A stretch of 37,095 bases of DNA from a virus. Of the stretch, positions 1 to 20,640 are shown piece by piece. Made by a program: the position numbers and the translations under genes. How positions within the stretch are numbered: the stretch's first letter is position 1; every line of letters starts with the position of its first letter. The notes beneath the pieces are model-generated. The model did not search any database and had not been told where the DNA came from. It saw nothing but the letters and a program-made list of their open reading frames with translations. The DNA lies in IMG/VR virus record IMGVR_UViG_3300032245_000456, positions 1 through 37,095 of that record; one strand, given 5' to 3'.

Positions 1-3000
1 AGTCTGGTGCTTGTTCTTCGGTCAAGATAAACTTGAACATCAAAATCAACAGTTGATTCTTGAAAATAGCAAGATCATTTATGAACAATTCATTGTTGAT
101 CGCTTGTATAATATTGCGTGTTTCGATCACTGGTTCCTGATCATAATACTGAGCGTCAAACACCTCGGCATCAAATCCAAAACGGCCTGCGGCATAATCC
201 CACAGGGTGTTATCAAAAGCAATGGTTCCATCTTGTAAACCAACCCGATCCCATCCGGTATTGGTTTTAATATAGATTTCCCATTTATTTTGTGCGTTGG
301 CTGTGACTTTAACACTGCTGCCCACAGCTACGTTATTGAGTGTTACAAGACTAGAATAATTTAGAACTTGGGCAACTGGTACAGTTGAAGAATTATAACC
401 TAATCTATACCAATCAATGTGACTCCAATAATTTTTTGTATTGAAATTCTGAATTCTAACCAACTGTGGAACCCTAGGAGCTGCAGGTGCTGTAGACGCT
501 AATACAACTTCATAAATTGTCCAGGCGCCGTTGTAGGTACTGTCTGACAAAATCAAATACTTGTATCCTAGCGGAACTTGGTTTAAATTTTGATAACTCA
601 ACTGTTCGACGTTATCTAATACCTTGTTGTATTGTTCGCTACCAGCGGCTGGAATAGGTTCGCTAGAATTTAACAATATAAATCTACGTTGTTCAACAAT
701 AGGCAAATACTTTAGTATTTCGTTGGCACGAGTCAGATAGTTTTCTAGCGCCATCAAGCGATCAACAAACATGCTCTGGCGCGGACTGAATGCTACGCCA
801 TATTGTTCAGGAGGACTCAAAAACGGATCTGGAACCTTGGCACCATTTTGATTGTATCCGCAGAAGCTGTCTTGTAACTTTTGATAAAGATTATCAGCCA
901 GGAAACTAGTTGGATCTCCGTCGGCAATCAATTGGAATTCAGTATGAATGTTTGCGTCTGACAATTCTTGTGAAAACTCTACGTGTAGTATTGTATCGGC
1001 CGCTGACAAATACTGTGATCCATTGTAAATTGCTACTGTGCTGGCATCAAGTGCGGCAATATAGGGTATACCGCTACTGCGTGGTTCTTCAATGTATCTA
1101 GCAATGCCAGTGGTACTGAGCGTTTTTCCTTCATTGATGGCAATGGTAGTAATTCCTGTGACCCAGAAATAATAAACAGTTTCAAATGTGCCAATGGCAT
1201 TCAAATGCGCTCTTACTGAGTAACTGGTAGTGTTTAATGGGGTTCCTTCACCAGTATAACCAGCAGGCGGTGTTGCGCTGGCAACCCACTGGTAGATATC
1301 TACTGTGCTTGACGGGAACAATTGTCCCCAGCGACGACTAGAATACACAATGTCGTCTTGATTTGGATCAATGAATCGTGCGTTTGTAGTATCCCACCAA
1401 ATTGTTCCTACTCGTTCAGATCCCCAGAAGTTACCAATATTATTAATTGGACCAAAATTATATTGAGCTGGGTTTACTTGACTGATAAAATCAATATTCT
1501 GCCTAGCAACTCCTAATATTTTACCTTGTAATGGATCAATGAAATCAAAGAAATAAGTTTCCTGACTTTGTAATTTGTTATACATGTATACAGTATTCAA
1601 CAACTCAACGTCGACTACAGGTCTCTGGAGACGCAGTGTTTTCCAAGCCGGTAGACGATCTAGGTTAACAAATTGTCCAACTCGGCCATAGTTGTCTGCA
1701 CCGGTTGGGCTTCCTACTAATAGTTTACCAGTGGTGTAATTAACAGCGGCTCCCCATTGATCTACAGGATCTGTTAAAGTATCATACACTTGTTGGCCAA
1801 ACACAAAATTTCCAGGATTTGTTACTGTGTCTGTGGCGCTAGACAAATAATCAAATGTATAGACCACACCACTTTCTAAAACTTCTTCAAAGAATGTAGT
1901 GCTTCGATCATCAAAATATGTAGTGCCGTTGTCAAAGAACACAGCTTCATACAAATTGCCACGTGGTGCACCAACAACCAGGGTCAGTGCTGTTGTGTCA
2001 ATGTTTACTGCGGCACCAAAGTTTGCACCAGCACTTGGGTTTGGACTGGTTATGGTTTGAGTATAAGCATATGAGTTGAATCCAAGATCATCAAATGCTG
2101 TGCCAGTTAAGCCAGGCCATACTGTCAATCTGTTGTATGCATCGGCGGCCGCAACATTAACTATGTTGATGGTCAACAATCCATTGGCCACAGAGGCTGT
2201 AACGTTGGGTATCTCAGCCGCAACAATTGCTTGTGCCAAGCCTGTGACTGTGTTGTTTGGACCAGCAGGCACTGCTACTGGCATGTTGTTGATACGTATA
2301 GTGTTGCCAGCTGTCAATGTAGGGCTGGCATTGGTAGAGGTAATTGTTCCATAAACACGGGCCTGATTAACATTTCGTTGAACTGAACCGGCAGCCAGGG
2401 CCACTGTTCCATCGACAGGAGCACCTGTATAGATACTACAGTTATTTGGACAAACGTCAACTGCGGCACCAAACGCAGATTCATCATAAGGTGTGTCTGG
2501 CACTATCTTTTGCACCTGAGTAAAGATATTGCTTTCAATCTCTAATATGTCGCCTACGTTTAAAGCAACATCCAATACTACGTTGCCGCCAGTTACTGCA
2601 AATTGACCGTTGATATATTGAGCACTGTTGGTCAAGTATGCATTATTCAAAATTACCGCTACTGGATCTTGATATCCTGATGGTAATGCATAAGTGAGCT
2701 GTGTGGTATCACTTATGATGTAACGTGTTACACTGCGGTCAAACACATACACAGATCCAGAATTTACCCCAGACGTAGATTCGTCATTGCTGGCACCAAT
2801 GATAATTTGGCGACCGTCGGTTGTGGTATGAATGCTAGAACCAAATCTTGCAGTTACATCTAGACCCCCAACTGTGATTGCATCCATTGGTTGCCAATAA
2901 GTTCCTGTTATTACTTTAATTGCACTACCCGCGGCTGGCGCGGTTGTAAATGTTATTGGGCTATCGCCTGAAGTAGAGAATGTATAATCAATGTTAGGAA

Positions 3001-6000
3001 CTTGTATTACATCGTCGATATACACAATGAAACTGTAGATATTGTTAGCGTCGTATAGATATGGTCCTAAATCAAAAACAGTTTCGCTTCCGTCGCCAAG
3101 GTAATCTTGTTGAACTTTGCGAGTGACAATTAATTTTTGGCCTTCTGGTGGAATTACTGCCAAGTTAATAACAGTCCCGCCTACAGTATAATCAACGCCA
3201 ATGGTTAGTAGTTCATTGTTTAATACCACGGCCAACTGTAATTCGTTGTCAAATTCAATTATGCCACCTACATTGTAAACCTGATAAACGCCAGGAGTAA
3301 TAAACTGTGCTGTTTGTCTAGGTATAGTTACACGACCATATGGATAAACTTTGTTTTGTCCAGGTGCTGACACATACATCCATTGCTCATCTTGGCTTAT
3401 AGTTACACTGTAACCAAATTCAGCATTACTATAATCACCATCTGGCGAAATTAACAGTTGACGCTCTTCAAATGTTGTGCTGCCTGTGGCTCGGTATATT
3501 GCAACTGCATATCCTTGATTGTTTCTACTTGCACTGGCACCAGCTATGGCCCAATTTTGATAGCCTATTTGTATTGCATTGCCAAATCCAAGTGTATCAG
3601 CGGCATTCAACAACAAGATAGAATTTTCAGAATAGTTGTCATTGACATCTTTAACATAGGTATAGATTGTACCAGTGGTATCGTCGCCGCCGGTTGGTGC
3701 TCCAATCATGGCAATAATATTTTGATATCCCTGTGCAACAGCAGTACCGTATCCTGAATTGGCTACAGGAACTGTTGGTGTTATGGCTCCAGCATCAATG
3801 AAAGGGTCTGTTTTTTCCAAGACTTCCCAAAGACCAGACCCGTTGTTGTCTACCCAAACTTTAGCACCAGGAATCAACGAATTTGCATAAGGAAGATTCA
3901 GCACATCGCTGGCCTGACCAACCCGCATGGTTTGTAGGCTGAATCCTAGGCCAGCACCACCAGTGACTGAGTTTGTTATAGTCAACGCTATAGCAACCGA
4001 CGTTAATCCAGGTAAAGCTATCACACGATATACTCCGTCAACTGTAGCGTCTAAGAATCTAATTATAAGTATGTCGCCCACAACCAACCCAGGTGGTCTA
4101 GTAAATGTAACAATTGTAGTGCCATTGAGATTTGGTGTAGCTGAAGTTATATACCCAGGAACTTCAGTGCATCTGTAAACGTTCCAGTCGTAGGCATTGC
4201 TTTTTGCCGCCCATACTGTGGTGCCAATACCGATAGTGTTTAAAACGCCACTAGCTAGGCCTAATTGACCATCAAGGTCAAACACTGTTATATCTACATC
4301 TTGTAAATTTACATATCCTGCGCTGGGCAATGCAGAATCTGCAACTGGTATAATAGCAGTTGGGAAAATGTCCGGGCTGGTTACATTGTAACTTTCTCTC
4401 CACAGGTCTTGATACAAGATAGTCTGATCAGCCACACTAGATTCTTGAGGAGCGATGATTTGCACCGTTCCAGGATTTGCTGTCAACAATGCTTCGTTGA
4501 GTCGCATCTCAACAAATCGACGGTTGGCATTGGCGCCATATATTCCTCGCTGTATTCCCCAGTTTTCATATATTTGATACTGTGCAGTTTCTTTGTTGAG
4601 ATTGGTATTGGTCAACAAACGAACACTGTTGAGCGTACCTTTGTCTTGAATCAACTGTTGATACAGATTAACTTGACTGATATCAGTCAAGTTTAAATCA
4701 ACCATATACTGACGTGGTCTAAATCCAATCAATCCAAACGCAAATAAATCTTGTTCAAGTTGTAGATTGGATTGATTAATGTCGTAACTGTTGGCCAATT
4801 GGTTGGCCAACAACGGAATGTTTTGTAGTAAGCCGCCTTGTATTTTAGTGTAGTTACTCTGCGACCAAAGCGATTGATTCCACTGAGTAGAAGGTTGAAC
4901 AATATCAAGTGCTTGCCAGTAATTATTTTTGTAAATGACAATTTCGCCTTTGGTATATTTCTGCAAAGGTTGCCATTCTTTCACTGTCTGTGTATTGTTG
5001 TTTATGAATCCTTGTGCATCCAACTGTCCATTCCATTCGGCGGCCACTGTGGCCACAACGGTGACACGGCTTTGTCTTGCACCTGTAGCTGGATCATATA
5101 ACAAATCACCAAACACACTGACATTGTCCAGGATAACCAAACTTTCGTAGCTGGTTTGACGTAAGGCAATATAACTTATAGTTTGTTCGTTTAAACTGTT
5201 TACTTTGAATGTGTTTTCGTAACGATCTATCACCAGCTGAGCCGCAGGAATTGTAGTTCTATTCTGGTCCAGGATTAGGTTCTCTGGAGTCTGAGTCACA
5301 ATTGAATCAATCACCGCTTCAGGCGTAATCAGGGTCAACTGTTGAGCTGTAGGGTTCAGACTGATTACACTGCCTGTCATCCAGCCTTGGTTGGCCCAAT
5401 ACAGGTATTCCTGGACCATTTGACTCCAGTTTAAAGTTTTACCGTTTTCTCTAGCATCAAACACCAAGCCTTGGCTTTCTAACAAAGCTCCGTAACTCAA
5501 CAAGAAGTCAGCCACAACAGTTTGATTAGTGAATACATATCCGTACGGCACCTTCACAATATCTTGAGTATAGGTAGTTGGAACAGTGACTCTAGTGCCG
5601 CCGGCTGTAATAACTCGTGTTGGTCCTCCAGTACGGCTGGCCAATATTTCAAAATATGGATTGGTCAAACTGTATCCAGTGACCGACCATCCGCCCGCAA
5701 CAACTTGAACAATAACAGCACTATACAAAGTTTGACTGAATGGTTGGTTCTTATATACCAACAGATTATAACTGTTGTCTGGTATCAACAAACTACTGTT
5801 TGTGCTGTCGGGACTGGCTGTTTCTGCAATTATTTCTAAGTATTGCTTGTCTGTAAACGTGCCCATTCTGTAGCATAATCTCACATCCAGCAAAGACAAA
5901 CTTTCTGTTAGTTTGTCTGTTGAATTGATGCCTAACTGACGGTTGTAGTCAACAATCCAGTCAATGTAGCTGGCTTTGCTAACGCCGTTGCCATACACCT

Positions 6001-9000
6001 CTACGCCATTGGCATCTAGTCTATAACGTTGATTGTATAAGAATTGTTCAAGGTCAGCATCATATTTGTAAAGATCTCTATCAGCAAACAAGCTAAAGAA
6101 TTTAGCCGGGCGTGTAAGTGCCAACAGGCGCATAACTGCAAATGGGAATGATGAACTGGTACGCCAGCTGTATTCAACCGGACCTTCGTCGCCAAACACC
6201 CAGCTCTTTTGCCACTGGCTAGAGTCATATAATCCTACAACACTAAAGAACGGACTTAATAGTGTGCCTTCGCTGTCTACAGGAATTACATCTTGAACTC
6301 GTGTAAGAGTGCATGACACACTAGCACCAGTTCCGCCACCAGTATCTCTAATAATTATTTCTGGTGGTGAAGTATATCCACTACCGGGATTAGTTACTGG
6401 TATTGATACAATTACTCCGTCAACAATGACTGGCGTTCCCAGCGTGGCTGGAGTAGAATAGTTGCCAGGTGGCGGATTTGAAATAGTTACAGTGGTGTTA
6501 GCGGTATAGCCAGTTCCACCATTTTGAATTGCAATCTCTCCAGCACCATAAATTATCAACTCAGGGCGAGCATATTTAGGTAGATAATATGCGCCTGCTG
6601 GATCTGCTACCTTGCCAGCAGCCAAATCTTCCCACAAGATCAAGTTGCCTGAAGTATAAGGAGCAGGACCATAAACGTCAGTCCACCACGTAGGCTCTTG
6701 ACTAAATCCTAACATTTCCCAAGGCGTAGCCTGTGGAGTTGGTGTGTCATAGAAATATTGATAAATGCCGCGCCATGCGCCAGCTGGTAACGCAGATTCG
6801 TTATAACCACCTACTCCAGTGAGTCTATTGCCGGCGGCGCTGTAGTTCCATGTGAATTGATTTGCAGCATTGTAAGTTTGTTCTGAGTAGGTTAATTTGT
6901 TCCAACCTAGCCAACTTAAAAAGTTAGGCGCCAATATTTCATTGATTTCAGCCAGACTATATCCGGTTGAACGGAACTGTCCAGGAGTAACATCAGTTAA
7001 TGTCAATGGCACTTCTGATTTAATTTTTAAATTGTTAAAAATTCTAGTTTCAAATTCTAACAACAACTGATCTCTAAAGTCGCCAAATGCCAGTGTAAGA
7101 CTTCCGTCGTGTCCTTGAATAACAAATTGTGGATTCTCTAGAGTAGAGTTAACATAAGTGTAGTCAGGATAAATCTTAGGCTGGAACGCAGGATACAACC
7201 CTAGTTTGGTAGGAGTGTTGGGCACAAACGTTCCATAGGTTGTGGCATATTCTTGTATGGTCACAACATCGCCTACCGATAACGGTACAGTTATAGTCAG
7301 TGTGGGGGCGTCAGTGCTGACAACATAGTCATAGCCAAATTGCAACAGAACATCGTTGACATATACCAATACACTTTGATAGTTTGAACTGGTAAAGTTG
7401 TAGGTTGTGTTGAGATTAAACGTTGGAGTTGAAATCAACGAATACGTTGTTGTGGTTTGGGTATACACCGGATTGGCCGGCAACATGTCAGTCCAGTAGA
7501 ATGGATTGTTTTGTGTGCGACCAGCAACCAACTGTGTAACAACGGCTGTTAACATGTCTGGAATTGTGTAGTTTGTATAATCCGTTGTAACTACTGCGTT
7601 TAATAATTGTGCCTTATACTGTTCGTATTCTCTACTGCTATAGGACAATGAATCAAAAATATTGTATTGTTTTGATCTCATAAAATAGCCGGCCAAGGTC
7701 ATTGGCGCACTATTTTGAATAATGTTGGTGCCGTAAGGAATAATATTACCCAGGTCTCGAGTATTGTTATTACCGTTGATTGGACCAACTAACCCTAAGA
7801 GATTTTCACAAATTGATTCGTAGTGTGTTCTAGCGGTGCCCACTGTGAAGTAAGGACTGTTGACGTTGAGCGGATTGTTTTCAAGATTAATAGGCACTTG
7901 ATAAAATGCCACTTTACTGGCTTGATCACTCAGCACAAGAACTTCAATGATATCACCTATAGCGAATGCTGTGCCATTATTGTAACTGGCATTTACCCAG
8001 GTTATTGTAGTGCTGTCAGCGGTGGTGGCCACGGAATACTTGTAAGATTCTTGAAATTCACTGCTTACATACAATTGAATACTTGGAATTACAGTGTTGG
8101 GTAATGCGGCAACATCGAGTTGCAATGGACGACCATCATAACTGAACTGGAATTGTTGTCTTGCACGACTTGGAACTACGGCCGTTTGCCATCCCAATTC
8201 ACGACGATAAGAAACCCGATCTTGATATTTGCGAACAAATCCCATACTGATATTTTCAGTATACCCTACACTGTCTATAGTGTAATTAAACGTGTCGGTA
8301 TACAAGTTGTTATCAAATACAATGTCGCCAATGTTTGACAAACTTAAATATTTGATAGCAAAACCCAATACTGGATCTTTGCCATTGTCGGATGGCGCAT
8401 ACGAAAACAATTTAGATCCGCGGAAATCGCTACTAGGATATACAACTGTATCAGAAAAACTTACACCGTTGGCATCATATACATCAAACAACGGAGCTTG
8501 GTTAGCTGAAGTTTTTTGTTGGGCAGCAATCCATTCAACTCCGTCAAACCAAAAACTTTTACCTTGTAGTGTAAGTCCACTGATACTTACTACACTATTG
8601 TCAACTAATACATCGGCATCTGGTGCTGGTACTAGATTGATCACTGGTTCAGCTATCAACGGAGGTACAGTATCCGGCGTGATAAATTCTACAACATAGA
8701 TTTTATCACGCACATCTGGATCAAGGTCAGCGGCAAATATAACACGACTACCGTTTATCAAAGTGTAGCCATCGATGCCATACCCGGTGGATCCATTGAC
8801 TGTGCTGAAGGCATCTGTATTTGAAAAATCAATGATGTCCACCGGTTGTTTGCCTTTGGTGCCAAAATCAAATAATCGGGTACCACCGCGGAATTCCAAT
8901 ATTGGACGACGAGCGCGAAGTGCATTGTCTACAACCAACACAGCATTGTTGTATGTTGCAGTTTGTTCAATTACACTGATATGGAACCAACGGTTACTGC

Positions 9001-10996
9001 GTGTCCACGGATTTAGATCTGGACTTGAACGATTGATTGTTAAGTAGTCTGGCTGTGCCGGTTGATTTAAACTGGCGTCGTAGTTGCCAAAGTCATAGAG
9101 TGTGCTGTCATACGGCACTGAACTGCTTTGAGTATATGTTTCTGGCGTTATAAAATCTGTAACTGGCAACAACTGTATGGCTGTGCCTACACCTTCGACG
9201 TAGTAGCTGTTTCCTTGATAACTGGCCGGAACAACTGATCCAATAAACTGAACTTTAAGTCCGTTAGTGAACACTACTCCGTTGGGACTGGTGTAATTTT
9301 TCTTGCCAAGTATATCTGTAATATCCAATGCGTCTGCAACACTTTGATCTATGACATTTATTTCACCAAAGATACCAGGATCAACGCCGTCTTGGTAGTA
9401 GAGTCGATCTCTTATGGCCGCCAACAGAGGAATTTGTTGGAAGGCTCCGTCTGCATCTTTGTACCAACTGGTATTAGAATATACTGCGCCAAATTGAATA
9501 TTGAATTTATACAAATCTGGTATGTCGTATATGCTGGTCAAACGCATATACTGACCACCGCCAGCTGCGGTTATATACTGTATCTGCCAAACACTGCGCT
9601 GAATTGCCACCTCCGCAATTGGTGTAGTTTGATCAAATGTCAAACTGTCAAACGATCCAGGACCTGCTTCTACTGGATCCTCAGGAGGCGCTGTTCTAAC
9701 CAACGGGTCAAACTGCGATTTAACTAACCAGCCACCTGTGTTGGGATCAATATCGGCACCTGTGAATACAATTGTGCGGCCTTCTAAGTTTGTGATCCCG
9801 TCAATTCCATTGGGATTTTCAGTTAAAAATTGATCAACAAATACATTGTTAAGCTGATCAAATTGCAAATCAGTTATGAGATTTACCTGGCCGTTGTTGA
9901 TGTTGATATATGGAAGACTGTAGTAAAAATCTTGTGCGTCTTTGGCCGGAACGTCAAAGGTTACGGTACCAAGATCAATGCCGTTGTTGGTCACACCGTT
10001 GACTGGTCCAAGTCTACTGCTGATATTGGGTGTAGCAGGTATGCGGCCGTTTACTCCTGGGTCTGTCTGAATCCAAAAGTTAGGACCAGTGCCGGGGTCG
10101 GCATCTACAATAGTAAACATGCCTTGCATGTTCATCTGTGTAGGATTATTGTAGTATAGTGTGTCAGGAGCATTCTGTGGCACAACAAAAGTTATTGTTC
10201 CTGTAGCAGCACCGTTATTGGTTACACCTTCGGTAAACAGGTTATTGATGCCCAGTGTCTGTTGTGTTTTAATATAAAACGGCAGTGCCGGTGTAGACAC
10301 CAAGGTAAATGTGTAGGTGTTGCCACGCACCAAAGTCAAGGTAGGATTAGTTTCGTAATCAATTACCCAGGCGCTGGTTCCTTGATTTGAAACACGAAAA
10401 TTCACACTGCTGGCTTCATTCTGTGCTATCTGGAACGTGTAACTGCCGCCGCGCACCAAGGTCAACGTGGGATTCTCTCCGGTCTCGCCGGTAAATGTAT
10501 AAGCACCATTGGCTCTTGTAACTACAAAATTGTCGGTGAGCGGCTTTGCTCCAGTAAACACGTCAACGGCATTTGGACCGCCTGGCAGCCAGTAATACTG
10601 TGCGTAATTGACATACTTGTCAAAGTCTACAAACGGATCCCAAGCATAGTATTCGCTGGTATAAAGTTGATCAGCATTTTGTGTAATGGCTCCTTGCAAA
10701 TTCAGAGCATCTGTTATGCCAGGATATGTTATGGCATCAACAACTTTCTTGTTGTCAATTGGATCAATTTGAACTACACCTGGCTCGAGTTGATAGTTGG
10801 TTCTAGTTGCTGTTGGTTCTGTAACATAGTAGTCACCTGGAATAACTCCAGGGCCAACACGACGTCCAACAAATCCTTGTATTTGTTTCAGCTGAGGTTC
10901 CTGGATCATTTGATCCAAGGTTGCAGCTAATACTTGTCTGTTGGTAGAGGTCTGGAAGATTTCTGGTAAGAAATCTACTGATCTGGTACGGGCCAT
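1..10996 (-). CDS. giant mosaic baseplate/adhesin protein at the gp7 position (3' end outside window)
   Basis: Reading leftward from ATG at 10996, the frame stays open to base 1, at least 3,665 codons; I checked the frame at both ends and at several internal points. The start overlaps the gp6 stop as TAATG. The first ~130 residues (beginning MARTRSVDFLPEIFQ) resemble the large structural protein next to gp6 in T4-like phages of aquatic bacteria, at the place of T4 gp7 (baseplate wedge, about 1,030 aa). Further modules, approximate residues: cupredoxin-like repeats 160-370; fibre-type 'VYVNDV...DY...G..I' repeats near 1200-1250, 2580-2700 and 2770-2820; Gly-Tyr 'GTGYT/GSGYTSPP' repeats 1480-1570; seven FG-GAP repeats 2410-3100. 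Inferred role: wedge component enlarged with host-binding modules. The family assignment of the N-terminal part is from memory; the size and the repeats are seen directly. Confidence 0.85.
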   Translation of the reverse strand, partial: MARTRSVDFLPEIFQTSTNRQVLAATLDQMIQEPQLKQIQGFVGRRVGPGVIPGDYYVTEPTATRTNYQLEPGVVQIDPIDNKKVVDAITYPGITDALNLQGAITQNADQLYTSEYYAWDPFVDFDKYVNYAQYYWLPGGPNAVDVFTGAKPLTDNFVVTRANGAYTFTGETGENPTLTLVRGGSYTFQIAQNEASSVNFRVSNQGTSAWVIDYETNPTLTLVRGNTYTFTLVSTPALPFYIKTQQTLGINNLFTEGVTNNGAATGTITFVVPQNAPDTLYYNNPTQMNMQGMFTIVDADPGTGPNFWIQTDPGVNGRIPATPNISSRLGPVNGVTNNGIDLGTVTFDVPAKDAQDFYYSLPYININNGQVNLITDLQFDQLNNVFVDQFLTENPNGIDGITNLEGRTIVFTGADIDPNTGGWLVKSQFDPLVRTAPPEDPVEAGPGSFDSLTFDQTTPIAEVAIQRSVWQIQYITAAGGGQYMRLTSIYDIPDLYKFNIQFGAVYSNTSWYKDADGAFQQIPLLAAIRDRLYYQDGVDPGIFGEINVIDQSVADALDITDILGKKNYTSPNGVVFTNGLKVQFIGSVVPASYQGNSYYVEGVGTAIQLLPVTDFITPETYTQSSSVPYDSTLYDFGNYDASLNQPAQPDYLTINRSSPDLNPWTRSNRWFHISVIEQTATYNNAVLVVDNALRARRPILEFRGGTRLFDFGTKGKQPVDIIDFSNTDAFSTVNGSTGYGIDGYTLINGSRVIFAADLDPDVRDKIYVVEFITPDTVPPLIAEPVINLVPAPDADVLVDNSVVSISGLTLQGKSFWFDGVEWIAAQQKTSANQAPLFDVYDANGVSFSDTVVYPSSDFRGSKLFSYAPSDNGKDPVLGFAIKYLSLSNIGDIVFDNNLYTDTFNYTIDSVGYTENISMGFVRKYQDRVSYRRELGWQTAVVPSRARQQFQFSYDGRPLQLDVAALPNTVIPSIQLYVSSEFQESYKYSVATTADSTTITWVNASYNNGTAFAIGDIIEVLVLSDQASKVAFYQVPINLENNPLNVNSPYFTVGTARTHYESICENLLGLVGPINGNNNTRDLGNIIPYGTNIIQNSAPMTLAGYFMRSKQYNIFDSLSYSSREYEQYKAQLLNAVVTTDYTNYTIPDMLTAVVTQLVAGRTQNNPFYWTDMLPANPVYTQTTTTYSLISTPTFNLNTTYNFTSSNYQSVLVYVNDVLLQFGYDYVVSTDAPTLTITVPLSVGDVVTIQEYATTYGTFVPNTPTKLGLYPAFQPKIYPDYTYVNSTLENPQFVIQGHDGSLTLAFGDFRDQLLLEFETRIFNNLKIKSEVPLTLTDVTPGQFRSTGYSLAEINEILAPNFLSWLGWNKLTYSEQTYNAANQFTWNYSAAGNRLTGVGGYNESALPAGAWRGIYQYFYDTPTPQATPWEMLGFSQEPTWWTDVYGPAPYTSGNLILWEDLAAGKVADPAGAYYLPKYARPELIIYGAGEIAIQNGGTGYTANTTVTISNPPPGNYSTPATLGTPVIVDGVIVSIPVTNPGSGYTSPPEIIIRDTGGGTGASVSCTLTRVQDVIPVDSEGTLLSPFFSVVGLYDSSQWQKSWVFGDEGPVEYSWRTSSSFPFAVMRLLALTRPAKFFSLFADRDLYKYDADLEQFLYNQRYRLDANGVEVYGNGVSKASYIDWIVDYNRQLGINSTDKLTESLSLLDVRLCYRMGTFTDKQYLEIIAETASPDSTNSSLLIPDNSYNLLVYKNQPFSQTLYSAVIVQVVAGGWSVTGYSLTNPYFEILASRTGGPTRVITAGGTRVTVPTTYTQDIVKVPYGYVFTNQTVVADFLLSYGALLESQGLVFDARENGKTLNWSQMVQEYLYWANQGWMTGSVISLNPTAQQLTLITPEAVIDSIVTQTPENLILDQNRTTIPAAQLVIDRYENTFKVNSLNEQTISYIALRQTSYESLVILDNVSVFGDLLYDPATGARQSRVTVVATVAAEWNGQLDAQGFINNNTQTVKEWQPLQKYTKGEIVIYKNNYWQALDIVQPSTQWNQSLWSQSNYTKIQGGLLQNIPLLANQLANSYDINQSNLQLEQDLFAFGLIGFRPRQYMVDLNLTDISQVNLYQQLIQDKGTLNSVRLLTNTNLNKETAQYQIYENWGIQRGIYGANANRRFVEMRLNEALLTANPGTVQIIAPQESSVADQTILYQDLWRESYNVTSPDIFPTAIIPVADSALPSAGYVNLQDVDITVFDLDGQLGLASGVLNTIGIGTTVWAAKSNAYDWNVYRCTEVPGYITSATPNLNGTTIVTFTRPPGLVVGDILIIRFLDATVDGVYRVIALPGLTSVAIALTITNSVTGGAGLGFSLQTMRVGQASDVLNLPYANSLIPGAKVWVDNNGSGLWEVLEKTDPFIDAGAITPTVPVANSGYGTAVAQGYQNIIAMIGAPTGGDDTTGTIYTYVKDVNDNYSENSILLLNAADTLGFGNAIQIGYQNWAIAGASASRNNQGYAVAIYRATGSTTFEERQLLISPDGDYSNAEFGYSVTISQDEQWMYVSAPGQNKVYPYGRVTIPRQTAQFITPGVYQVYNVGGIIEFDNELQLAVVLNNELLTIGVDYTVGGTVINLAVIPPEGQKLIVTRKVQQDYLGDGSETVFDLGPYLYDANNIYSFIVYIDDVIQVPNIDYTFSTSGDSPITFTTAPAAGSAIKVITGTYWQPMDAITVGGLDVTARFGSSIHTTTDGRQIIIGASNDESTSGVNSGSVYVFDRSVTRYIISDTTQLTYALPSGYQDPVAVILNNAYLTNSAQYINGQFAVTGGNVVLDVALNVGDILEIESNIFTQVQKIVPDTPYDESAFGAAVDVCPNNCSIYTGAPVDGTVALAAGSVQRNVNQARVYGTITSTNASPTLTAGNTIRINNMPVAVPAGPNNTVTGLAQAIVAAEIPNVTASVANGLLTINIVNVAAADAYNRLTVWPGLTGTAFDDLGFNSYAYTQTITSPNPSAGANFGAAVNIDTTALTLVVGAPRGNLYEAVFFDNGTTYFDDRSTTFFEEVLESGVVYTFDYLSSATDTVTNPGNFVFGQQVYDTLTDPVDQWGAAVNYTTGKLLVGSPTGADNYGRVGQFVNLDRLPAWKTLRLQRPVVDVELLNTVYMYNKLQSQETYFFDFIDPLQGKILGVARQNIDFISQVNPAQYNFGPINNIGNFWGSERVGTIWWDTTNARFIDPNQDDIVYSSRRWGQLFPSSTVDIYQWVASATPPAGYTGEGTPLNTTSYSVRAHLNAIGTFETVYYFWVTGITTIAINEGKTLSTTGIARYIEEPRSSGIPYIAALDASTVAIYNGSQYLSAADTILHVEFSQELSDANIHTEFQLIADGDPTSFLADNLYQKLQDSFCGYNQNGAKVPDPFLSPPEQYGVAFSPRQSMFVDRLMALENYLTRANEILKYLPIVEQRRFILLNSSEPIPAAGSEQYNKVLDNVEQLSYQNLNQVPLGYKYLILSDSTYNGAWTIYEVVLASTAPAAPRVPQLVRIQNFNTKNYWSHIDWYRLGYNSSTVPVAQVLNYSSLVTLNNVAVGSSVKVTANAQNKWEIYIKTNTGWDRVGLQDGTIAFDNTLWDYAAGRFGFDAEVFDAQYYDQEPVIETRNIIQAINNELFINDLAIFKNQLLILMFKFILTEEQAPD

Positions 10997-13900
10997 TAAA
11001 TTACTCCGCTGCCAGGAGCAGTTCGTATGTTCGTACTAGTTAATGCAGTAATCACTTCGACATTTTGCACAGTGGCTCCGTTTACAAATATCTGATTGGG
11101 GGCGCTACGAATTTCGTATAGGCTTCCAAAATACTTATCCTGGTTGAGAGGTACCAAAACTACACTGCTGACAATTCCAGCCAACTTGTCATGCAGGAAG
11201 CCCGACAGTTCTGAGAAGTAGAATGTGTCACCGAAGTCCCATAGGTCTAGACTGAAGTATTCATTGAGATATTGCACTACCAAATTTTTAATTTCACTGG
11301 TACTGGCCACACTTTGGGCAGCGCGAATAACTTTAATTGTGGCCTGAAGCTCTGGCAAGGCCTTGGCTCCAAACAAGGGCTGGAATTGCACACTGTTCAT
11401 GATCAGGGTGTCTGACAACATTTTGTAATTGTTTAATCCAGCATAGGCTGTGTTTAAAAAATCCAATGTTGGCGGAATTGGTTCAGTTACTGTGTTTGTG
11501 GTGTCTTGAATATAATTTGTATAGGCTATGTAGTATTCATTGGTCACTACATACACGTCAATGATGTTGGTGGTGCCAGGGTCAATTCTGTTGGTCAATG
11601 GGCTGTTGTGTCTGTATTGGAAGAACAAGTTTTGTCGACCAGTCTGAGCAATATATTCGTCAGTTGCTACCAACGAGCGAACACCAGTTGTAATGTCTTG
11701 TGCCAATACATAAAATACTTCGTCTGTGTAGGTGTAAAATACTTGTCCTGGGACATATTCGGCCAGCACTACTAGGACATCATTTTCTGTAGCATACTGA
11801 CTGTTGACTATGCCTGAGTCAATTAATACGTATCTTTGTAAATTATCAAAGTCCACAATGCGTTTTAAAAATACCCACGGGCTTGCTGCTGATGCAGGAT
11901 TAGGTATGGGTCCAATAATTTCAGAGAAGAAATCTGGGTTGTCTGGCACGCCGTCATTGTTTCTGTCAGAGAATGAAACCAACACTTGATAATCATCTAC
12001 TAAGCCGTCAATTTGTATAGGTTGTCCTACAATCTTGGTTATGATATCAGACCCTAGTGGTGCAGCTGATGTGGGCTGACTGTTAGTTTTTAATACATTA
12101 ATAAAGTCGCTAATTGTTGTTCCGGTTCTGCTGTCGTACACCAGTTGATCACCACTGAAGAAAAATCTAGTTTGAACTACACTTCCAAAGTAGTAATCAA
12201 GAGCACGGAAACTCACAGTATAAAATCCGCTGTTAAACACAAATTCAATAAACCAACTTGCATCTAAGCCGGCACCAGACGTGTCTCCAGCATTGGCTTC
12301 ACTCCAGGGTGCATCAACATTTAAATTTGTTGTGGTTATCAGGTACCAGGTACCAGCAGTGCCAGTAATGTCTCCTAAACTGTCATAACCTAATCCAAAA
12401 TTTCTTTTCAATCCAATCTGTTCAGCCATACTGGTTTGTAAGCTGTTTGGTATTTCTTTAACAAAAATAGGAATAACCTGAATCGCTATTGCGCCGTCGG
12501 GCACATAGTCGTTCAGCACAACAGGACCTAGACCACTAGGGAGATTGCCTTGACCTTGGTTGGTTCCGTCAAGATATATTTCTAATGGACTAGCCCAAAT
12601 AGTAAGTTTTTCATCTGCCAGGGTTGGAGAGCCCACCTTTAACCGATTGTTGGCATCAAAATAATAACCAGCAGGTGCAGCAAATTTTACAAGACTGCCT
12701 ACAGTGATATATCTAGCGTTGGATGATGTAGTGCCATTGATTGGCACTGGATTTCCTGACGAGTTTACAAAATAACCAGTGGAGCTTCCGGCTTGACTTG
12801 TGCTGAGGTTCCAACCAATAAACGATGACGTTAGGTTGGCTCTTGGGTATTTTGCGTAATAGAATTGTTGTGCTTGACTTTTGGCCAATAATGGCTGGAC
12901 TTCGTTTAAAATAACACTGTTGGTTTCATTACTGGTTTGTGTAATAAACTGGAAAGTAGGCAAACTGTAGTTTTGATACAAGGCTCCGTCACTGCTGAAA
13001 GTGTTGGTGCTAGAATATTTTCCAGTGTTGTCTACTAGATCAAGATAGCGACTGACTCCAATGCTTGAACGATTCAGTGCTTTGCTTTTTAAAATTGAAT
13101 TGTAGGCTGTGTGTGGAAAGTTGTTGTAATCTTCTCCGTTGACCATACGATTTTGTGTGTAGTATCTTGCAGGCGCATTATTTTTAATTTGAGCAAGAGT
13201 TTCACGTGGTTGTGCATTTGATACTGGTGTTGTGATACCGCAGGTAAATGTTAGGGTTTGTAACTGTCCAGTACGACTCACATAGCTGATAGGTATAGCA
13301 ATGCTTTGCATCTCTTGTGGATTGATAATGTATTGCAATCCATTGCTGGCACGGACATAGTTACGGAATGTTCCTACAGGGATATCGCTAAAGACTCCGT
13401 CACCAAAGGTCAATGTTATTTGATCATTGGTTCTGCTGGTCACACTAAACAAAGGACGACTGCCAGGATTGGTCTGTTCTGCTGCAGCCCCATACACACT
13501 AGGAACATAGGTCCACTCTTTGGCAATGGTACCAACGTTGTCTAATTGGTATAACCAAACATCAGTGTTGTTAACACCTTCGATGTTGATGTCTACTGTT
13601 CTGTTGCTTACACGATCGGCCAAGTTGAAATCTTGATTTTGTAGTGTGCCTTGTTTGAACAAGAAAAAATATCCGGTGTTGGCACTGGCAAATCCCAATT
13701 GGTCATTGCGGAATAAAATATTAAATCTTCCACTGGGTTTTGGGCTAGGTTCATACACATAATCTTGTCCAACAATGGTAGAAGTAACTGCTTCAAATGG
13801 CATGTTGATACCGTCTACGGTGGCAGTATACGGCACCACTGGCAAGTAGCCTGGCACAAGATTGATACTGTATTCTGCGGTGTCAACTCCAAGAATTGTT

Positions 13901-14430
13901 GCTCGTGCTCCAGGAACACCCACTCGTTGTGCATCAATTAACGCGGCATTTATAATTGCTGTAAATTGTTCTTGCCAGCTGAAGTTTGTGGGGTCTGCCC
14001 AGTTAACTGTTACATTGGCCAAGTCAATTCCGTTGATGTCAGTGACATCCTCCGTAGTTGATACTGAAAATACCTTAAGGTAACCTGACGCTTCTATGTT
14101 GCGTTTAGGAGTATAGCTGACCAAATTGGCCAGGCGAACCACGCTGTCTCTACGCTCAGCTGAATCAATGTAGTTTTCACGTGTGTTTAAATCGGTACGG
14201 AATGCTAGACTTTGACCCATAAAGGCCATGACGTCTAACAAGGCAATAAATTCTGAACTTTCGATATAGTCATTGAAAGTTTCTGGGTAATATAAGCGCA
14301 GATAGTCTACAAAACTTTTGCGTAAGGTTTCAAAATCGTAACTTTGAAAGTCAGCCTCTTGGTACGTTTGATAGATTCTTTTCCAATCTTCAACGCCAAA
14401 AATTACTGTTTGTCTTGTAGTAGATGCCAT
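10996..14430 (-). CDS. 6: baseplate wedge subunit gp6
   Basis: 1144 aa. The N-terminus (about residues 10-115: DWKRIYQTYQEADFQSYDF, then YPETFNDYIESSEFIALLD and FRTDLNTRENYIDSAERRDS) is the conserved gp6 signature of T4-like phages. gp6 forms the dimeric ring that ties the six wedges of the baseplate together. T4 gp6 is 660 aa, so this one is almost twice as long; the C-terminal region (about 1025-1144, PLFGAKALPELQATIKVIR onward) also looks gp6-like, so the extra length is internal. It follows gp25 in the operon, as is usual in this group, and its stop shares one base with the start of the giant gene. A TAAATA box and an AGGA ribosome-binding site precede it. Confidence 0.9.
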   Translation of the reverse strand: MASTTRQTVIFGVEDWKRIYQTYQEADFQSYDFETLRKSFVDYLRLYYPETFNDYIESSEFIALLDVMAFMGQSLAFRTDLNTRENYIDSAERRDSVVRLANLVSYTPKRNIEASGYLKVFSVSTTEDVTDINGIDLANVTVNWADPTNFSWQEQFTAIINAALIDAQRVGVPGARATILGVDTAEYSINLVPGYLPVVPYTATVDGINMPFEAVTSTIVGQDYVYEPSPKPSGRFNILFRNDQLGFASANTGYFFLFKQGTLQNQDFNLADRVSNRTVDINIEGVNNTDVWLYQLDNVGTIAKEWTYVPSVYGAAAEQTNPGSRPLFSVTSRTNDQITLTFGDGVFSDIPVGTFRNYVRASNGLQYIINPQEMQSIAIPISYVSRTGQLQTLTFTCGITTPVSNAQPRETLAQIKNNAPARYYTQNRMVNGEDYNNFPHTAYNSILKSKALNRSSIGVSRYLDLVDNTGKYSSTNTFSSDGALYQNYSLPTFQFITQTSNETNSVILNEVQPLLAKSQAQQFYYAKYPRANLTSSFIGWNLSTSQAGSSTGYFVNSSGNPVPINGTTSSNARYITVGSLVKFAAPAGYYFDANNRLKVGSPTLADEKLTIWASPLEIYLDGTNQGQGNLPSGLGPVVLNDYVPDGAIAIQVIPIFVKEIPNSLQTSMAEQIGLKRNFGLGYDSLGDITGTAGTWYLITTTNLNVDAPWSEANAGDTSGAGLDASWFIEFVFNSGFYTVSFRALDYYFGSVVQTRFFFSGDQLVYDSRTGTTISDFINVLKTNSQPTSAAPLGSDIITKIVGQPIQIDGLVDDYQVLVSFSDRNNDGVPDNPDFFSEIIGPIPNPASAASPWVFLKRIVDFDNLQRYVLIDSGIVNSQYATENDVLVVLAEYVPGQVFYTYTDEVFYVLAQDITTGVRSLVATDEYIAQTGRQNLFFQYRHNSPLTNRIDPGTTNIIDVYVVTNEYYIAYTNYIQDTTNTVTEPIPPTLDFLNTAYAGLNNYKMLSDTLIMNSVQFQPLFGAKALPELQATIKVIRAAQSVASTSEIKNLVVQYLNEYFSLDLWDFGDTFYFSELSGFLHDKLAGIVSSVVLVPLNQDKYFGSLYEIRSAPNQIFVNGATVQNVEVITALTSTNIRTAPGSGVI

Positions 14431-14475: not shown

Positions 14476-14850
14476 TTAAACGTAACTGGCTCGGCGTTGT
14501 TGTTGATTAAAAAATATACTCAACTGTTGTGCAGTAGTGTTAGGAACCACGGCTAACTGTACCTGTATTAATATTCCGTTTTCTTGCGGAAAAACCTGGG
14601 TGTCTGATATTTGTATACGTGGGTCATATCCAGCAACTCGTTGGATTTCATTTTCTATAGCAGTAACCAACGCAGGTGACTGGTTTTCAAATAAATTGTC
14701 CCATAATGTGGTGCCAAATTGCGGGCGGCCCGGTAATTGACCTTGTCTAATGTTCAGGCCATTTAACAAGTCACGTTTGACCAAAGCTTCATCTAATAAT
14801 GTAAACTTTTTATATTGATCTTGGGTGTTAAATCCAATAAATGTTGGCAT
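14476..14850 (-). CDS. 25: baseplate wedge subunit gp25
   Basis: 124 aa, close to T4 gp25 (132 aa). gp25 is the small wedge protein that contacts the sheath and helps trigger its contraction; it is related to a component of type VI secretion baseplates. Seen here: the N-terminal MPTFIGFNTQDQYKKFTLLDEALVKRD, the LLNGLNIRQGQLPGRPQFGT segment, the TAIENEIQRVAGYDPRI core typical of the family (the conserved E-R pair lies here), and a C-terminal beta strand ending in VQLAVVP. The gene lies between the 282-aa gene and gp6, the usual neighbour. No Shine-Dalgarno is visible; a TTAAATA box ends 7 bases before the ATG and contains the stop codon of the preceding gene. Confidence 0.9.
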   Translation of the reverse strand: MPTFIGFNTQDQYKKFTLLDEALVKRDLLNGLNIRQGQLPGRPQFGTTLWDNLFENQSPALVTAIENEIQRVAGYDPRIQISDTQVFPQENGILIQVQLAVVPNTTAQQLSIFFNQQQRRASYV

Positions 14851-14857
14851 AGTTTAG

Positions 14858-14864
14858 TATTTAA
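14858..14864 (-). promoter_or_regulatory. late promoter box TTAAATA abutting gp25
   Basis: Minus-strand TTAAATA followed by CTAAACT and then the gp25 ATG (14850). The TAA stop of the 282-aa gene (14861-14863) is inside the box. T4 late transcripts start about six bases after the box, so an mRNA from here would have almost no leader; no ribosome-binding site is seen. Confidence 0.55.
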
Positions 14865-15709
14865 CCTTGTCTTGAACCGCGTGAAAAGCGGAAAGTGCCG
14901 TCATCTGGGTTGCTTGGAGGTATAGGTATAACTATATTCCCAACCGTGGCTATTAACTCAGCTGCTTTGGCTGATGCAATAACATCGGCTTCGATGGCCG
15001 CGACATTGGCATATTCTAATGTGGGTATTTTAGGATTGTCAATGGTAAATGCAACCGCTTGATCAATTTGATCTCTAACTACTGTGTTGTCAGAGCTTGG
15101 TGCAGCAGGCGCTAGCATTAATTCAGCACCGTAGGTGTCAACAAAATCTATGGCATAAATGCCTTGTCGTCCAGCAATTTCTATAGCTGAATACAAAGTA
15201 GAATCTGCTGTGCCTTGAATATAATCAACCACTGCATCAACTCCGTATCTAACCGCAGGTTGTAGGAAAGCGGCAATATACCTGGCTGTTTCGTTGCCAA
15301 CAATTATTTCATAATCCAGCAGTCCTTGATATGCTCCATCGTACAAGGCCACCTGCACTTGTTCTTGCAAAATAGGAGAATCTAAATAATCAGCTAGACT
15401 ATTAATACTGTATGATCCAGTCCAGGCTCCAGGAGAGTTCAACACAGCAAAAGTCATAGTAGGATCCATTATGAGATTTAGGGCCGCGGGTTTCAACAGG
15501 CCAGCCAACACTAGGTTCGCTGGTGTTTGTCCATACAGTCCTATTCCTCTAGTGGCTATTTCAGTGCCAGCATACACAGCTTCGCCATTGCTGGCAATAT
15601 ACCAGTCAGGCAATAATTCTCCAACAAGATCTGTAGATGGATAGGTAGCCGCTGTTCTGGCCTGGGCGATAAGTGCTGTGACTTGTCCTGTGGTTAATAT
15701 AGTTGTCAT
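14861..15709 (-). CDS. structural protein of unknown function between gp5 and gp25
   Basis: 282 aa. The ATG overlaps the stop of gp5 as ATGA, which implies translational coupling. I do not recognise a named family with certainty. Visible features: a middle segment with GLYGQTPANLVLAGLLKP, then LNSPGAWTG (about residues 77-120) and SLADYLDSPILQEQVQVAL, a layout I associate from memory with small conserved phage proteins linked to the tail tip or cell-wall contact; an Ala-rich, mostly helical C-terminal half; and a proline stretch (IPIPPSNPDD) before a basic tail (FRFSRGSRQG). No signal peptide or membrane segment. Position between hub (gp5) and wedge (gp25) genes makes a tail-tip or hub-associated role likely, but this is inferred from context. 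Confidence 0.6.
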   Translation of the reverse strand: MTTILTTGQVTALIAQARTAATYPSTDLVGELLPDWYIASNGEAVYAGTEIATRGIGLYGQTPANLVLAGLLKPAALNLIMDPTMTFAVLNSPGAWTGSYSINSLADYLDSPILQEQVQVALYDGAYQGLLDYEIIVGNETARYIAAFLQPAVRYGVDAVVDYIQGTADSTLYSAIEIAGRQGIYAIDFVDTYGAELMLAPAAPSSDNTVVRDQIDQAVAFTIDNPKIPTLEYANVAAIEADVIASAKAAELIATVGNIVIPIPPSNPDDGTFRFSRGSRQG

Positions 15710-17358
15710 GTTGTGGCCGCCGGTACAGTTGTTGTTGCTGGATTTGTTCCAAGAAATTCAGATTTGGTAACAGGTGCAGTTACTGGCCTTGCAGCCATTC
15801 TGTTGAACGAAATTTGTGCCAATTCAAGATTGCTTCCTACTTTAGGAACAACAACCGCGCTGGTAGACGTTGCTGACGTAACAGCAGCGGCTGCTGGATC
15901 ATTCAAATTGGTAGTGACGTTAACACCACTGTTGTGTCCTTTGAATGGTTCATGTGTAGGAGCTCTGGTAACAATGGTTGATAAAGTCCCGGGTTCAGAT
16001 GTCCACCCTTTGTTGGCAATCCATCTAGTATCAGCCAGTTTATATCCAGTCATTGATTTAACTGGAGTTACTCCAGCGGCAGATCCACCATTTAGGTTGA
16101 TCACCGAAGCTTTGAAATTCAAACTTCCTCCACCATTCCAACTACCAGTTTTACTTTGCAAGGCCAATGCACCATCACTTCTTATGCCAACTTTAGTTTG
16201 TCCATACATAGATATGGCCTGTGTGGTTGTCATGGTTATACCTGTAACACCTTCTAATTTGAGTTGAGTATTGGCCTTGGCTTTGATACTTCCACCTGCA
16301 TACATGTTGATATCTTTGTCAGCATGTAGATTTAACGTGCCTTGTGTTCTTACGTTGACTGAATTGGTGCTGTAAAGATCAATAGTTCCATTTTGTCCCA
16401 ATTCAATCCAGCTTTGGCCATTGGCGTGACAAATGTAAAAACAATTGCCATCATCACTCATGGTTATTTGATGGCCTTTGGCCGTGCGTATACGAACCAG
16501 AGTATCTTTGCCTGACAAGTCGCCGTCATCCATGACCAAGGTATGTCCGCCCATACGACCAATTACCACTATGTCCTGCGGTTTAACTGCGCCGGTTTCT
16601 AGTTGTTTCTTAATGGTTTCTGGTTTCAACCCACCTTGATATATGGGTTTGCCAGGAGTGCTGATTCCGTAAACTGAACTGGGACTTTCTCGTTGACTAC
16701 TGCTTTTTATAGGGCCACGAACAGTGTCAGTGATCAATCCTTGTTGTAAAAATGTGCCAGCAATAACGCTTTGCACTGGTTTTTGCTGATCATAAAATTT
16801 AGGATTTTGATTGATGGCCTTGTTTAATTCGTTAATTTCTACCACTGGCAATTGTTTGGCATCACCAAATAGGCCCGATGAGCTAGCCGCGCTTGACAAG
16901 GCATATTCTTTTGTATCAACTGCGCCAATGGCTGGAATCATACGGTTAATTCCGTTTACAGGTATACATCCTATATAGAATCCTTTGGTCGGGTCGCCGC
17001 CTACAAAGAAACACAGGACCTGAACTCCAATATCAGGAGGAGTAAACCACATTCCGTAACTGTTGCTGTTGCCAGGATATGTGCCAGCCCCTGTGCTGGT
17101 TCCTAATGGTGCTGTTGCGCCATAAAAAGGCGGACAATAACTTACTGTGCGCCACAAACTAGGATCACCAAGGTTTGGTGTTCCATCTTTATTGGTTGCA
17201 CCAAACTGATCAATATACACTTGCAATCGTCCACTGCGAGTGGTGTCTACATTGCTGACCACGGTGCCAATATAGGGCCCCATTTCCGCAGGCATACCAC
17301 CACGATCAAATTTGTAGTTCTCTGAACGACCTCGACTCCGTTGTATATTTTCTGACAT
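15706..17358 (-). CDS. 5: baseplate hub / tail spike gp5, without lysozyme domain
   Basis: 550 aa. gp5 forms the trimeric membrane-puncturing needle below the tail tube. Residues about 20-135 look like the OB-fold (MGPYIGTVVSNVDTTRSGRLQVYI, WFTPPDIGVQVLCFFVGGD). About residues 270-430 are the C-terminal triple beta-helix: alternating polar/hydrophobic strands such as GTIDLYSTNSVNV, GTLNLHADKDINMYAGGSIK. RAPTHEPFKGHNSG (about 462-475) is a motif seen in gp5 of T4-like phages of aquatic bacteria. In T4 a lysozyme domain of about 165 residues sits between the OB-fold and the helix; here the linker of about 130 residues (about 145-270) is polar, low in complexity and has no lysozyme motif. The gene lies 3 bases after the 1092-aa gene and overlaps the 282-aa gene. 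Confidence 0.85.
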   Translation of the reverse strand: MSENIQRSRGRSENYKFDRGGMPAEMGPYIGTVVSNVDTTRSGRLQVYIDQFGATNKDGTPNLGDPSLWRTVSYCPPFYGATAPLGTSTGAGTYPGNSNSYGMWFTPPDIGVQVLCFFVGGDPTKGFYIGCIPVNGINRMIPAIGAVDTKEYALSSAASSSGLFGDAKQLPVVEINELNKAINQNPKFYDQQKPVQSVIAGTFLQQGLITDTVRGPIKSSSQRESPSSVYGISTPGKPIYQGGLKPETIKKQLETGAVKPQDIVVIGRMGGHTLVMDDGDLSGKDTLVRIRTAKGHQITMSDDGNCFYICHANGQSWIELGQNGTIDLYSTNSVNVRTQGTLNLHADKDINMYAGGSIKAKANTQLKLEGVTGITMTTTQAISMYGQTKVGIRSDGALALQSKTGSWNGGGSLNFKASVINLNGGSAAGVTPVKSMTGYKLADTRWIANKGWTSEPGTLSTIVTRAPTHEPFKGHNSGVNVTTNLNDPAAAAVTSATSTSAVVVPKVGSNLELAQISFNRMAARPVTAPVTKSEFLGTNPATTTVPAATT

Positions 17359-20300: not shown

Positions 20301-20640
20301 ATGTGGTGTCTGGAGCTGTAGCTATTCGGCCGTCGGGTTGAAGAACTTGTAACGGAGCTTCGGGTGTTTGTGATCGCGAATCGGGTGCTGTGGCCAGCTG
20401 ATCGTCTCTGACCAAGTTTCCAGCACTGGCGGTGCCGCCAATTTGGGCAGATTCAGCTACTTGTATTTGTTCATTTACCACTGCAAGCAACTCTTGTGCA
20501 GAGTTTATTCTTGCTTGGATCCCGGCCGCAATTGATGCTGAAGCATTGGTCTGGGCATAAGCTAGTTGTGCGGTAAGATTAGCTATCTCTGCAGTTAATC
20601 GTCCACGCTCGCTATACAGGTAAGCAAGATTTTGTGCCAT
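17362..20640 (-). CDS. large virion structural protein, hub region (1092 aa)
   Basis: 1092 aa, ATG one base after the stop of the gp53-like gene. Residues 1-65 are a likely coiled coil (YLYSERGRLTAEIANLTAQL and on). Long Gly/Thr/Ala/Gln-rich linkers separate more ordered blocks at about 230-440 (YGVSLYLTTKEAYETMVSTG, VVYLMVIRFYGYDQNGN, FPLQIKDIKFKVGSKLVEYD) and about 560-800 (YNIKYIISPYRIAQLNSQYF, YNYWFTGKNTSVLNYEESIN). Two linker segments, about 151-173 and 452-472, share the same motif, GGG-x-SS followed by DPRRLD. I do not recognise a T4 counterpart with confidence. Its place between gp53-like and gp5 genes suggests a hub or tail-tip protein; T4 gp27 is a candidate analogue by position only. 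No enzyme motif was seen. Confidence 0.65.
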   Translation of the reverse strand: MAQNLAYLYSERGRLTAEIANLTAQLAYAQTNASASIAAGIQARINSAQELLAVVNEQIQVAESAQIGGTASAGNLVRDDQLATAPDSRSQTPEAPLQVLQPDGRIATAPDTTSGTNAVSVKDSLAVGETIVDTGTDAPVRPLSQTQATSTGGGSSSAAYATNDPRRLDIDREGSGVIPGPDLATPPANTQIGVGAPGEDSGQARTPNATQQEINTIFSNSPITPLPNVLDQYASYTYGVSLYLTTKEAYETMVSTGRKNLSGCWLLMQSAGIPTGSRVPYFNNDYYIEKVRLQSKIIGKAVGLTHNVVDIDFTISEPSGITLIPNLTKAIQQFYPDIATTKSFSSVVYLMVIRFYGYDQNGNLVRGAPGNLNSANTNTDANAFVEKFFPLQIKDIKFKVGSKLVEYDVKAVGLPYNINVGSKRGSIPYNIELSGQSVNDLLNGTLDASNVTGGGRSSTTFAATDPRRLDLPPAGAPANAGAIPLSNGATVRQGLITALNNYQRELSGPGPDCPYTYPDVYSVEFATPALKNAKVKKPGGLDRSKTSNSVGSTAADQKLGSKQSVDTNSRVQGATAGMQIVQLLDQIVRNSSYLEDQQLVSYSETDGQLLRNGAAAKNVAWFKINLQATPQFDKYDPKRNDFAYNIKYIISPYRIAQLNSQYFPKPTFTGVQKEYNYWFTGKNTSVLNYEESINNLYYLTLSGVNFNKTFAGTPGAADDQIQYSHQTRSTESSQGADGKTNEPVANAAEQLLNPADFKESTITIVGDPAWLQQGEAFVGRPIGSSDYFSAFLADGTINFDAGQVLYRIAFNSADDYNLNTGLQTVTGQAVSSSGAGTDATALTGRAGGPAAINRTFIAKEVYSTFAKGKFTQELKGSILLDKTTADNAAAASATQFLQQQAINGLSSSRLGSSLTAAVSGFATPAWLAPTVNGAVGAVTNSAVNYLTQNVLGGQSTRPSAIPGLPTSGTQAIGILNRALTAPAKLNNVVTAAGNPINAVVDPYYGLTPEQIAALGGADPTDPIIRARLGIPQISEIERPPVVNPLSNQTMAGSDDSGDSATTAEYLFASNNETPRLLDAPQSTPEDLNDFFG

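Follow-up and report, generated by a model that had tools for sequence, protein, structure and literature searches.

A giant gene at the gp7 position of a jumbo-phage baseplate cluster belongs to a family of very large virion proteins

Gene Content of the Baseplate Cluster

The window analysed here, 37,095 nucleotides in length, is the whole of the viral record IMGVR_UViG_3300032245_000456. Its minus strand carries a cluster of genes that encode, in order, a short-tail-fibre-like protein (22838-23191; 117 aa; phrog_12032, E 6e-12), a 627-aa virion protein, a gp53-like wedge subunit (20642-20950; phrog_7145, a family matched by T4 gp53 too), a 1,092-aa virion protein, a gp5-like hub subunit (15706-17358; phrog_13211 and PF04717), a 282-aa protein, a gp25-like sheath initiator or wedge protein (14476-14850; PF04965 above the cut-off, and phrog_261), a gp6-like baseplate wedge subunit of 1,144 aa (10996-14430; phrog_10646, E 6e-279, and phrog_219, E 6e-25), and a giant protein of the phrog_10938 family (2-10996). 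The 282-aa protein (14861-15709), located between the gp5-like and gp25-like genes, is kept at 265-282 aa in three close relatives (L087, L090, and L098) and has no match in PHROG or Pfam.

The gp6 stop and the start of the giant gene share one base (TAATG), and in all six relatives checked the end of gp6 is likewise exactly the start of the giant. The giant also lies directly after gp6 in PA5oct, Atu_ph07, RaK2, CBB, and Phosso. The gp25-gp6-giant order of the window is the gp25-gp6-gp7 order of the T4-like phage P-SSM2, and T4 itself has gp6-gp7. Preceded by gp5, gp25, and gp6, the giant thus occupies the gp7 position as it is found in T4-like phages such as P-SSM2, in agreement with an earlier note on this DNA. 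The same note had suggested that a wedge protein grown into a giant adhesin would be a route to host binding different from separate tail fibres. The neighbourhood does not support a replacement of such fibres: a short-tail-fibre-like gene belongs to the same cluster, and downstream of the giant, close relatives encode first a 205-aa protein and next one of 428 aa that matches fibre-type PHROGs and, near the cut-off, Peptidase_G2. The giant is thus accompanied by separate fibres.

Two genes elsewhere in the window deserve mention. A 143-aa protein (27833-28264) has phrog_447, 'NAD synthetase', as its best match, and several homing-endonuclease families match it as well; judging from these matches, it is probably a homing endonuclease under a misleading family name. 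A 714-aa protein (32280-34424) contains a transglycosylase-like domain (PF06737 above the cut-off) and has a weak match to a head maturation protease.

Continuity and Size of the Giant Frame

The giant gene (2-10996, minus strand) opens with an ATG and continues for 3,665 codons up to the contig end, confirming the uninterrupted frame described previously; its stop is not visible because the record ends at the window edge. The part of the protein encoded in the window amounts to 403 kDa. The five nearest relatives (90-92% identity) have complete frames of 4,806-4,817 codons, indicating that about 1,140 codons are missing from the window copy. The complete giant of relative L010 comprises 4,806 aa (528 kDa), and the closest complete relatives imply for the window phage a full-length protein of roughly 528 kDa, with a chain of about 4,810 aa.

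A scan of IMG/VR viral contigs recovered 80 loci with the C-terminal part and 77 with the N-terminal part of the gene. Among the 58 relatives closed at both ends, 55 contain frames of 4,320-5,192 codons, and three (L053, L027, and L137) have a shorter frame. The L053 gene has an in-frame stop around 9505 and the L027 gene a frame break around 12300, in each case with the remainder of the gene beyond the interruption, reflecting either a sequencing error or a truly split gene; the L137 frame ends early. Nucleotide differences between the window gene and that of L010 are concentrated at third positions (269/125/1210 by codon position), with dN of 0.044, dS of 0.87, and dN/dS of about 0.05; such values indicate strong purifying selection on the giant gene. 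The intact frames in 55 of 58 relatives, together with the divergence at third positions, establish a single continuous coding frame that is cut by the contig end. Among isolated phages, no relative was found at the DNA level.

A Family of Very Large Virion Proteins

At the protein level, the giant matches phrog_10938 in five stretches (E 1.4e-283, PHROGs profile search); this family profile spans 3,324 positions and is named 'virion structural protein'. By BLAST the giant is colinear with the homologues of four isolates, and the homology extends across most of the protein. The homologues encoded by isolated phages include RaK2 gp465 (3,326 aa), CBB gp236 (3,340 aa), PA5oct gp355 (3,857 aa), SCTP-2 gp140 (3,807 aa), Atu_ph07 gp180 (4,449 aa), and those of Vibrio 2.275 (3,771 aa) and Phosso (4,555 aa). 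In most of these phages the giant gene immediately follows a gene annotated as baseplate wedge (gp6), much as in the window. The window clade differs from them in its greater length (a predicted length of about 4,800 aa, with relatives reaching 5,192) and in its additional cupredoxin-fold, glycine-rich, and C-terminal modules.

Homologues of the giant are present in virions. CBB_236 was detected in CBB virions with 21 peptides (PMC5259590), and the record of PA5oct gp355 is marked ESI-MS/MS. In phAPEC6, the 381.88-kDa 'hypothetical protein' gp245, listed beside the 'baseplate wedge' protein gp244, was detected in the virion with 17 peptides (PMC7247149); judging from its size and from its position behind the wedge gene, it is presumably the phrog_10938 giant of that phage. 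The virion proteomics that the earlier note had proposed, with its search for a very large band, has in effect already been done for these relatives (phAPEC6 gp245, 381.9 kDa; CBB_236; PA5oct gp355). The literature searches run found no functional study, structure, or binding data for any phrog_10938 giant.

PHROGs assigns the category 'head and packaging' to phrog_10938 as well as to phrog_11190 and phrog_12050; in the window, these families correspond to 2-10996, 17362-20640, and 20944-22827, all in the baseplate cluster. This label is probably wrong for these families.

Conserved Backbone and Inserted Modules

Alignment with the isolates delimits several conserved regions of the giant. A family-specific N-terminal domain (residues 1-150; 10547-10996) shares about 21-39% identity per 75-residue block with PA5oct, Atu_ph07, RaK2, and SCTP-2, and is matched in sixty phage records, some of them marginally. 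A scaffold conserved throughout the jumbo-phage family spans residues 526-1480 (6557-9421), and a further block conserved in four distant aligned isolates spans residues 3083-3450 (647-1750; all coordinates of the giant are on the minus strand).

Between and within these regions are modules of the kind found in fibres and adhesins, a chain of which had been proposed in the earlier note and is borne out by the cupredoxin fold, CBM5/12-like, FG-GAP, and beta-repeat domains found here. Residues 193-300 (10097-10420) are predicted to adopt a cupredoxin fold, their model superposing on rusticyanin with a VIA-align Z of 11.3 over 96 residues at 2.4 A. The segment contains no Cys and no His, whereas the copper ligands of a cupredoxin would be His, Cys, His, and Met, so that this is a cupredoxin-fold domain without a copper site. 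A second domain of similar type surrounds it. Six of 16 representative relatives lack the inner domain at this point, and some relatives have just one domain. Matches of the first 300 residues to cyanophage 'tail fibre' proteins coincide with this module, and we discounted them as a sign of whole-protein homology.

The beta repeat, about 65 residues long, is found in four copies in the window protein by an HMM of the internal repeat: one at residues 1184-1251 (7244-7447) and three at residues 2565-2823 (2528-3304), the latter region including an FG-GAP_2 repeat above the Pfam cut-off at residues 2716-2752. The closest complete relative has about five further copies in the C-terminal part that is absent from the window. 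The 87 residues at 1481-1567 (6296-6556; matched by phrog_460) form a glycine-rich insert that is shared with L016/L088, which represent one contig, and is missing from the other relatives of 90-92% identity; this distribution points to a recent gain or loss of a module.

A small CBM5/12-like domain is predicted at residues 2002-2051 (4844-4993). In VIA-align comparisons of the predicted model, which cover about 45 residues in a region with model pLDDT of about 61-79, it resembles the Milano baseplate chain 8fqc_P1 (Z 7.8), the phage 7-7-1 fibre 9rkv_M (Z 7.4), and chitin-binding domains (Z 4-6). The window protein does not reach the Pfam cut-off for the corresponding family, PF02839 (CBM5/12); in complete relatives, CBM_5_12 is above the cut-off at positions past the window edge. 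Judging by fold and phage context, the modules may bind host glycans.

AlphaFold models of residues 1-1190 and 1560-2300, with a mean pLDDT of 54 for one and 57 for the other, are weak outside single modules; because both are poor overall, our structural claims are limited to single modules. Structure searches gave no gp7 or wedge match over the backbone, a result that is not evidence against such a relationship. Overall, the alignments present the picture of a conserved backbone with swapped-in modules.

Search for a gp7 Homolog

The earlier note had proposed that the N-terminal part of the giant resembles a conserved wedge-type protein, and this part of its reading is not supported. Matches to residues 1-160 are confined to the giant's own family, with no detectable similarity to T4 gp7, P2 gpI, Mu gp48, or cyanophage gp7. 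Specifically, profile comparisons of the N-terminus with T4 gp7, its core, P2 gpI, Mu gp48, T4 gp6, the phage's own gp6, and cyanophage gp7 were all null (E 0.46 against the cyanophage gp7 core). The null results with P2 gpI and Mu gp48 say little, as T4 gp7 itself fails to match either protein by the same method; more can be learnt from the control with cyanophage gp7. The predicted model of residues 1-141 has a pLDDT under 50, and in sequence searches neither P0001 nor L010 nor the N-terminal profile had a relative in the PDB.

We extended the comparison to all parts of the giant and found no significant profile match to the T4 gp7 (phrog_964) alignment; as positive controls, the method recovered T4 gp6 from the gp6 family (E 4e-4) and cyanophage gp7 (E 3e-8). 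A separate search for phrog_964 in the records of five metagenomic relatives and in the complete genomes of PA5oct, Atu_ph07, RaK2, and SCTP-2 did not detect it, whereas phrog_219 (gp6) was detected in all of them. The missing phrog_964 would agree with the giant being the gp7 equivalent, and equally with a gp7 that has diverged beyond detection. For gp8, the family PF09215 had no match anywhere, controls included, making that search uninformative; phrog_977 matched T4, K491, and P-SSM2 and not the jumbo relatives, with a marginal match elsewhere in Atu_ph07. PHROGs also includes a giant 'baseplate wedge subunit' family of 4,179 positions, phrog_2885, which T4 gp7 touches.

One stretch of the giant did resemble gp7. 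Residues 2,089-2,149 (4550-4732) align weakly to the cyanophage gp7 core (hhalign E 0.0013), placing the conserved motif 'Y..fi..KGT..s' of the giant onto 'FY.sKGi..S' of gp7, whose core comprises a helix bundle and the trifurcation motif. Shuffling the alignment columns 400 times never gave an equally low value (best shuffle, 0.0022), and in a sliding-window analysis the six windows of 117 that stand out all contain the KGT motif (next best, 0.058). The region has no confident structural model. This signal is weak but specific, and we regard it as suggestive; if the giant does contain a gp7 core, the core would be internal, not N-terminal.

Comparison with Other gp7 Systems

A giant gene at the gp7 position is not new: such genes are annotated in cyanophages and have been sequenced in several jumbo phages. 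The annotated baseplate wedge protein gp7 of P-SSM2 (5,195 aa; NC_006883.2, 75005-90592) and gp7 of P-SSM4 (7,312 aa; AY940168.2, 57144-79082) are both longer than the window protein. The P-SSM2 giant shares with that of the window its slot after gp25 and gp6, and the cyanophage giants are of the same order of size and have glycine-rich modules weakly similar to those of the window giant. Their gp7 core, however, is clearly T4-like (T4 gp7 by hhalign, 95%, E 3e-8) and lies near the N-terminus, at about residues 190-270, whereas the one candidate core of the window giant is weak and some 2,100 residues into the chain.

With T4 gp7 itself (phrog_964, 1,032 aa), the giant has in common its gene position, and no other gp7 is detectable in the genomes searched; it differs in being at least 3.5 times longer and in having no significant sequence match. 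The minimal gp7-type wedge proteins XM1 gp17, TssG, and P2 gpI would share the role proposed below, although P2 gpI (176 aa) and XM1 gp17 (242 aa) are very small beside a giant of about 4,800 aa, and sequence similarity between the giant and P2 gpI is undetectable. In XM1, gp17 binds the tail spike via loop insertions (PMC10457771).

Proposed Role of the Giant Protein

We consider it probable, though well short of certain, that the giant is a virion baseplate protein of a RaK2/PA5oct/Atu_ph07-type jumbo myophage at the gp7 slot, and most likely the gp7-equivalent wedge scaffold. This reading is based on the phrog_10938 match, the place after gp6, the homologues in virions, the undetected phrog_964, the weak signal at residues 2,089-2,149, and the modules; against it are the lack of a T4 gp7 profile match, with one short region at E 0.0013, the poor models, and the PHROGs category. 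In the proposed arrangement, the backbone (about residues 1-150, 526-1480, 1570-2290, and 3083-3600) would be assembled at the six wedges together with gp6 and gp25, and the gp7-type motif near residues 2,089-2,149 would be the leading candidate for the site that contacts the gp6 dimer. The exchangeable beta-sandwich and carbohydrate-binding-like modules, inserted in the backbone and at the C-terminus, would form the outer baseplate, where they could hold fibres and make additional weak contacts with surface glycans.

The strongest competing explanation, which we nevertheless regard as unlikely, is that the giant is an adhesin or fibre-like appendage attached to the baseplate and encoded in the gp7 slot, the true gp7 being short, diverged, and encoded elsewhere. 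An N-terminus without clear gp7 homology and the many adhesin-like modules would fit this, and a minimal gp7 ortholog such as the 242-aa gp17 of XM1 could escape detection (PMC10457771). Against it, the gene lies strictly after gp6 in very distant phages, most of the protein consists of conserved backbone and not of variable modules, and separate fibre genes are close by. We give a much smaller chance to the giant being a peripheral ornament (tail hairs, whiskers, or a baseplate skirt) and not part of the wedge. Homologue carriers CBB, phAPEC6, and Atu_ph07 do bear hair- or whisker-like appendages (PMC5259590, PMC7247149, PMC6102473), but the hairs of CBB were reported as a trait undescribed in the other RaK2-like phages, although RaK2 has the gene, and the giant gene sits within the baseplate cassette.

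Less probable again is a head protein or an ejected protein, as the PHROGs category of phrog_10938 would have it: the same category is given to its baseplate-cluster neighbours phrog_11190 and phrog_12050, the gene is syntenic with gp5, gp25, and gp6, and the modules are of surface type. That the frame is an assembly artefact fusing several genes might be suspected from its contact with the contig edge and from the three shorter or interrupted frames among 58 relatives, yet the chance of this is negligible in view of the 55 intact frames in other contigs and the low dN/dS, and isolate genomes encoding proteins of 3,326-4,555 aa refute it.

Read as a probable wedge scaffold, the giant is a long example of a catalogued family of very large jumbo-phage virion proteins; with giant genes at the gp7 slot already annotated in other phages, it is a known kind of protein. 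The present analysis adds the length range of the clade, a map of the modules with their gain and loss, results that speak against a wedge domain at the N-terminus, and an internal signal of gp7 type that is specific though weak. The phrog_10938 giants are annotated merely as 'virion structural protein' or 'hypothetical', and well-studied jumbo phages have homologues in their virions; the gp7-slot placement, the candidate core at residues 2,089-2,149, and the map of backbone and modules together offer structural biologists a concrete hypothesis. A more specific proposal, which we advance only tentatively and think somewhat doubtful, is that the phrog_10938 giants are true homologs of gp7, with the wedge core lying deep in the chain, after about 2,100 residues. 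In that case gp7 would have been enlarged in at least two ways, with C-terminal growth in the cyanophages and additions on either side of the core in RaK2/PA5oct-type jumbo phages, beta modules being taken up in each enlargement, and the baseplate wedge would be a recurrent platform for an outer host-contact layer.
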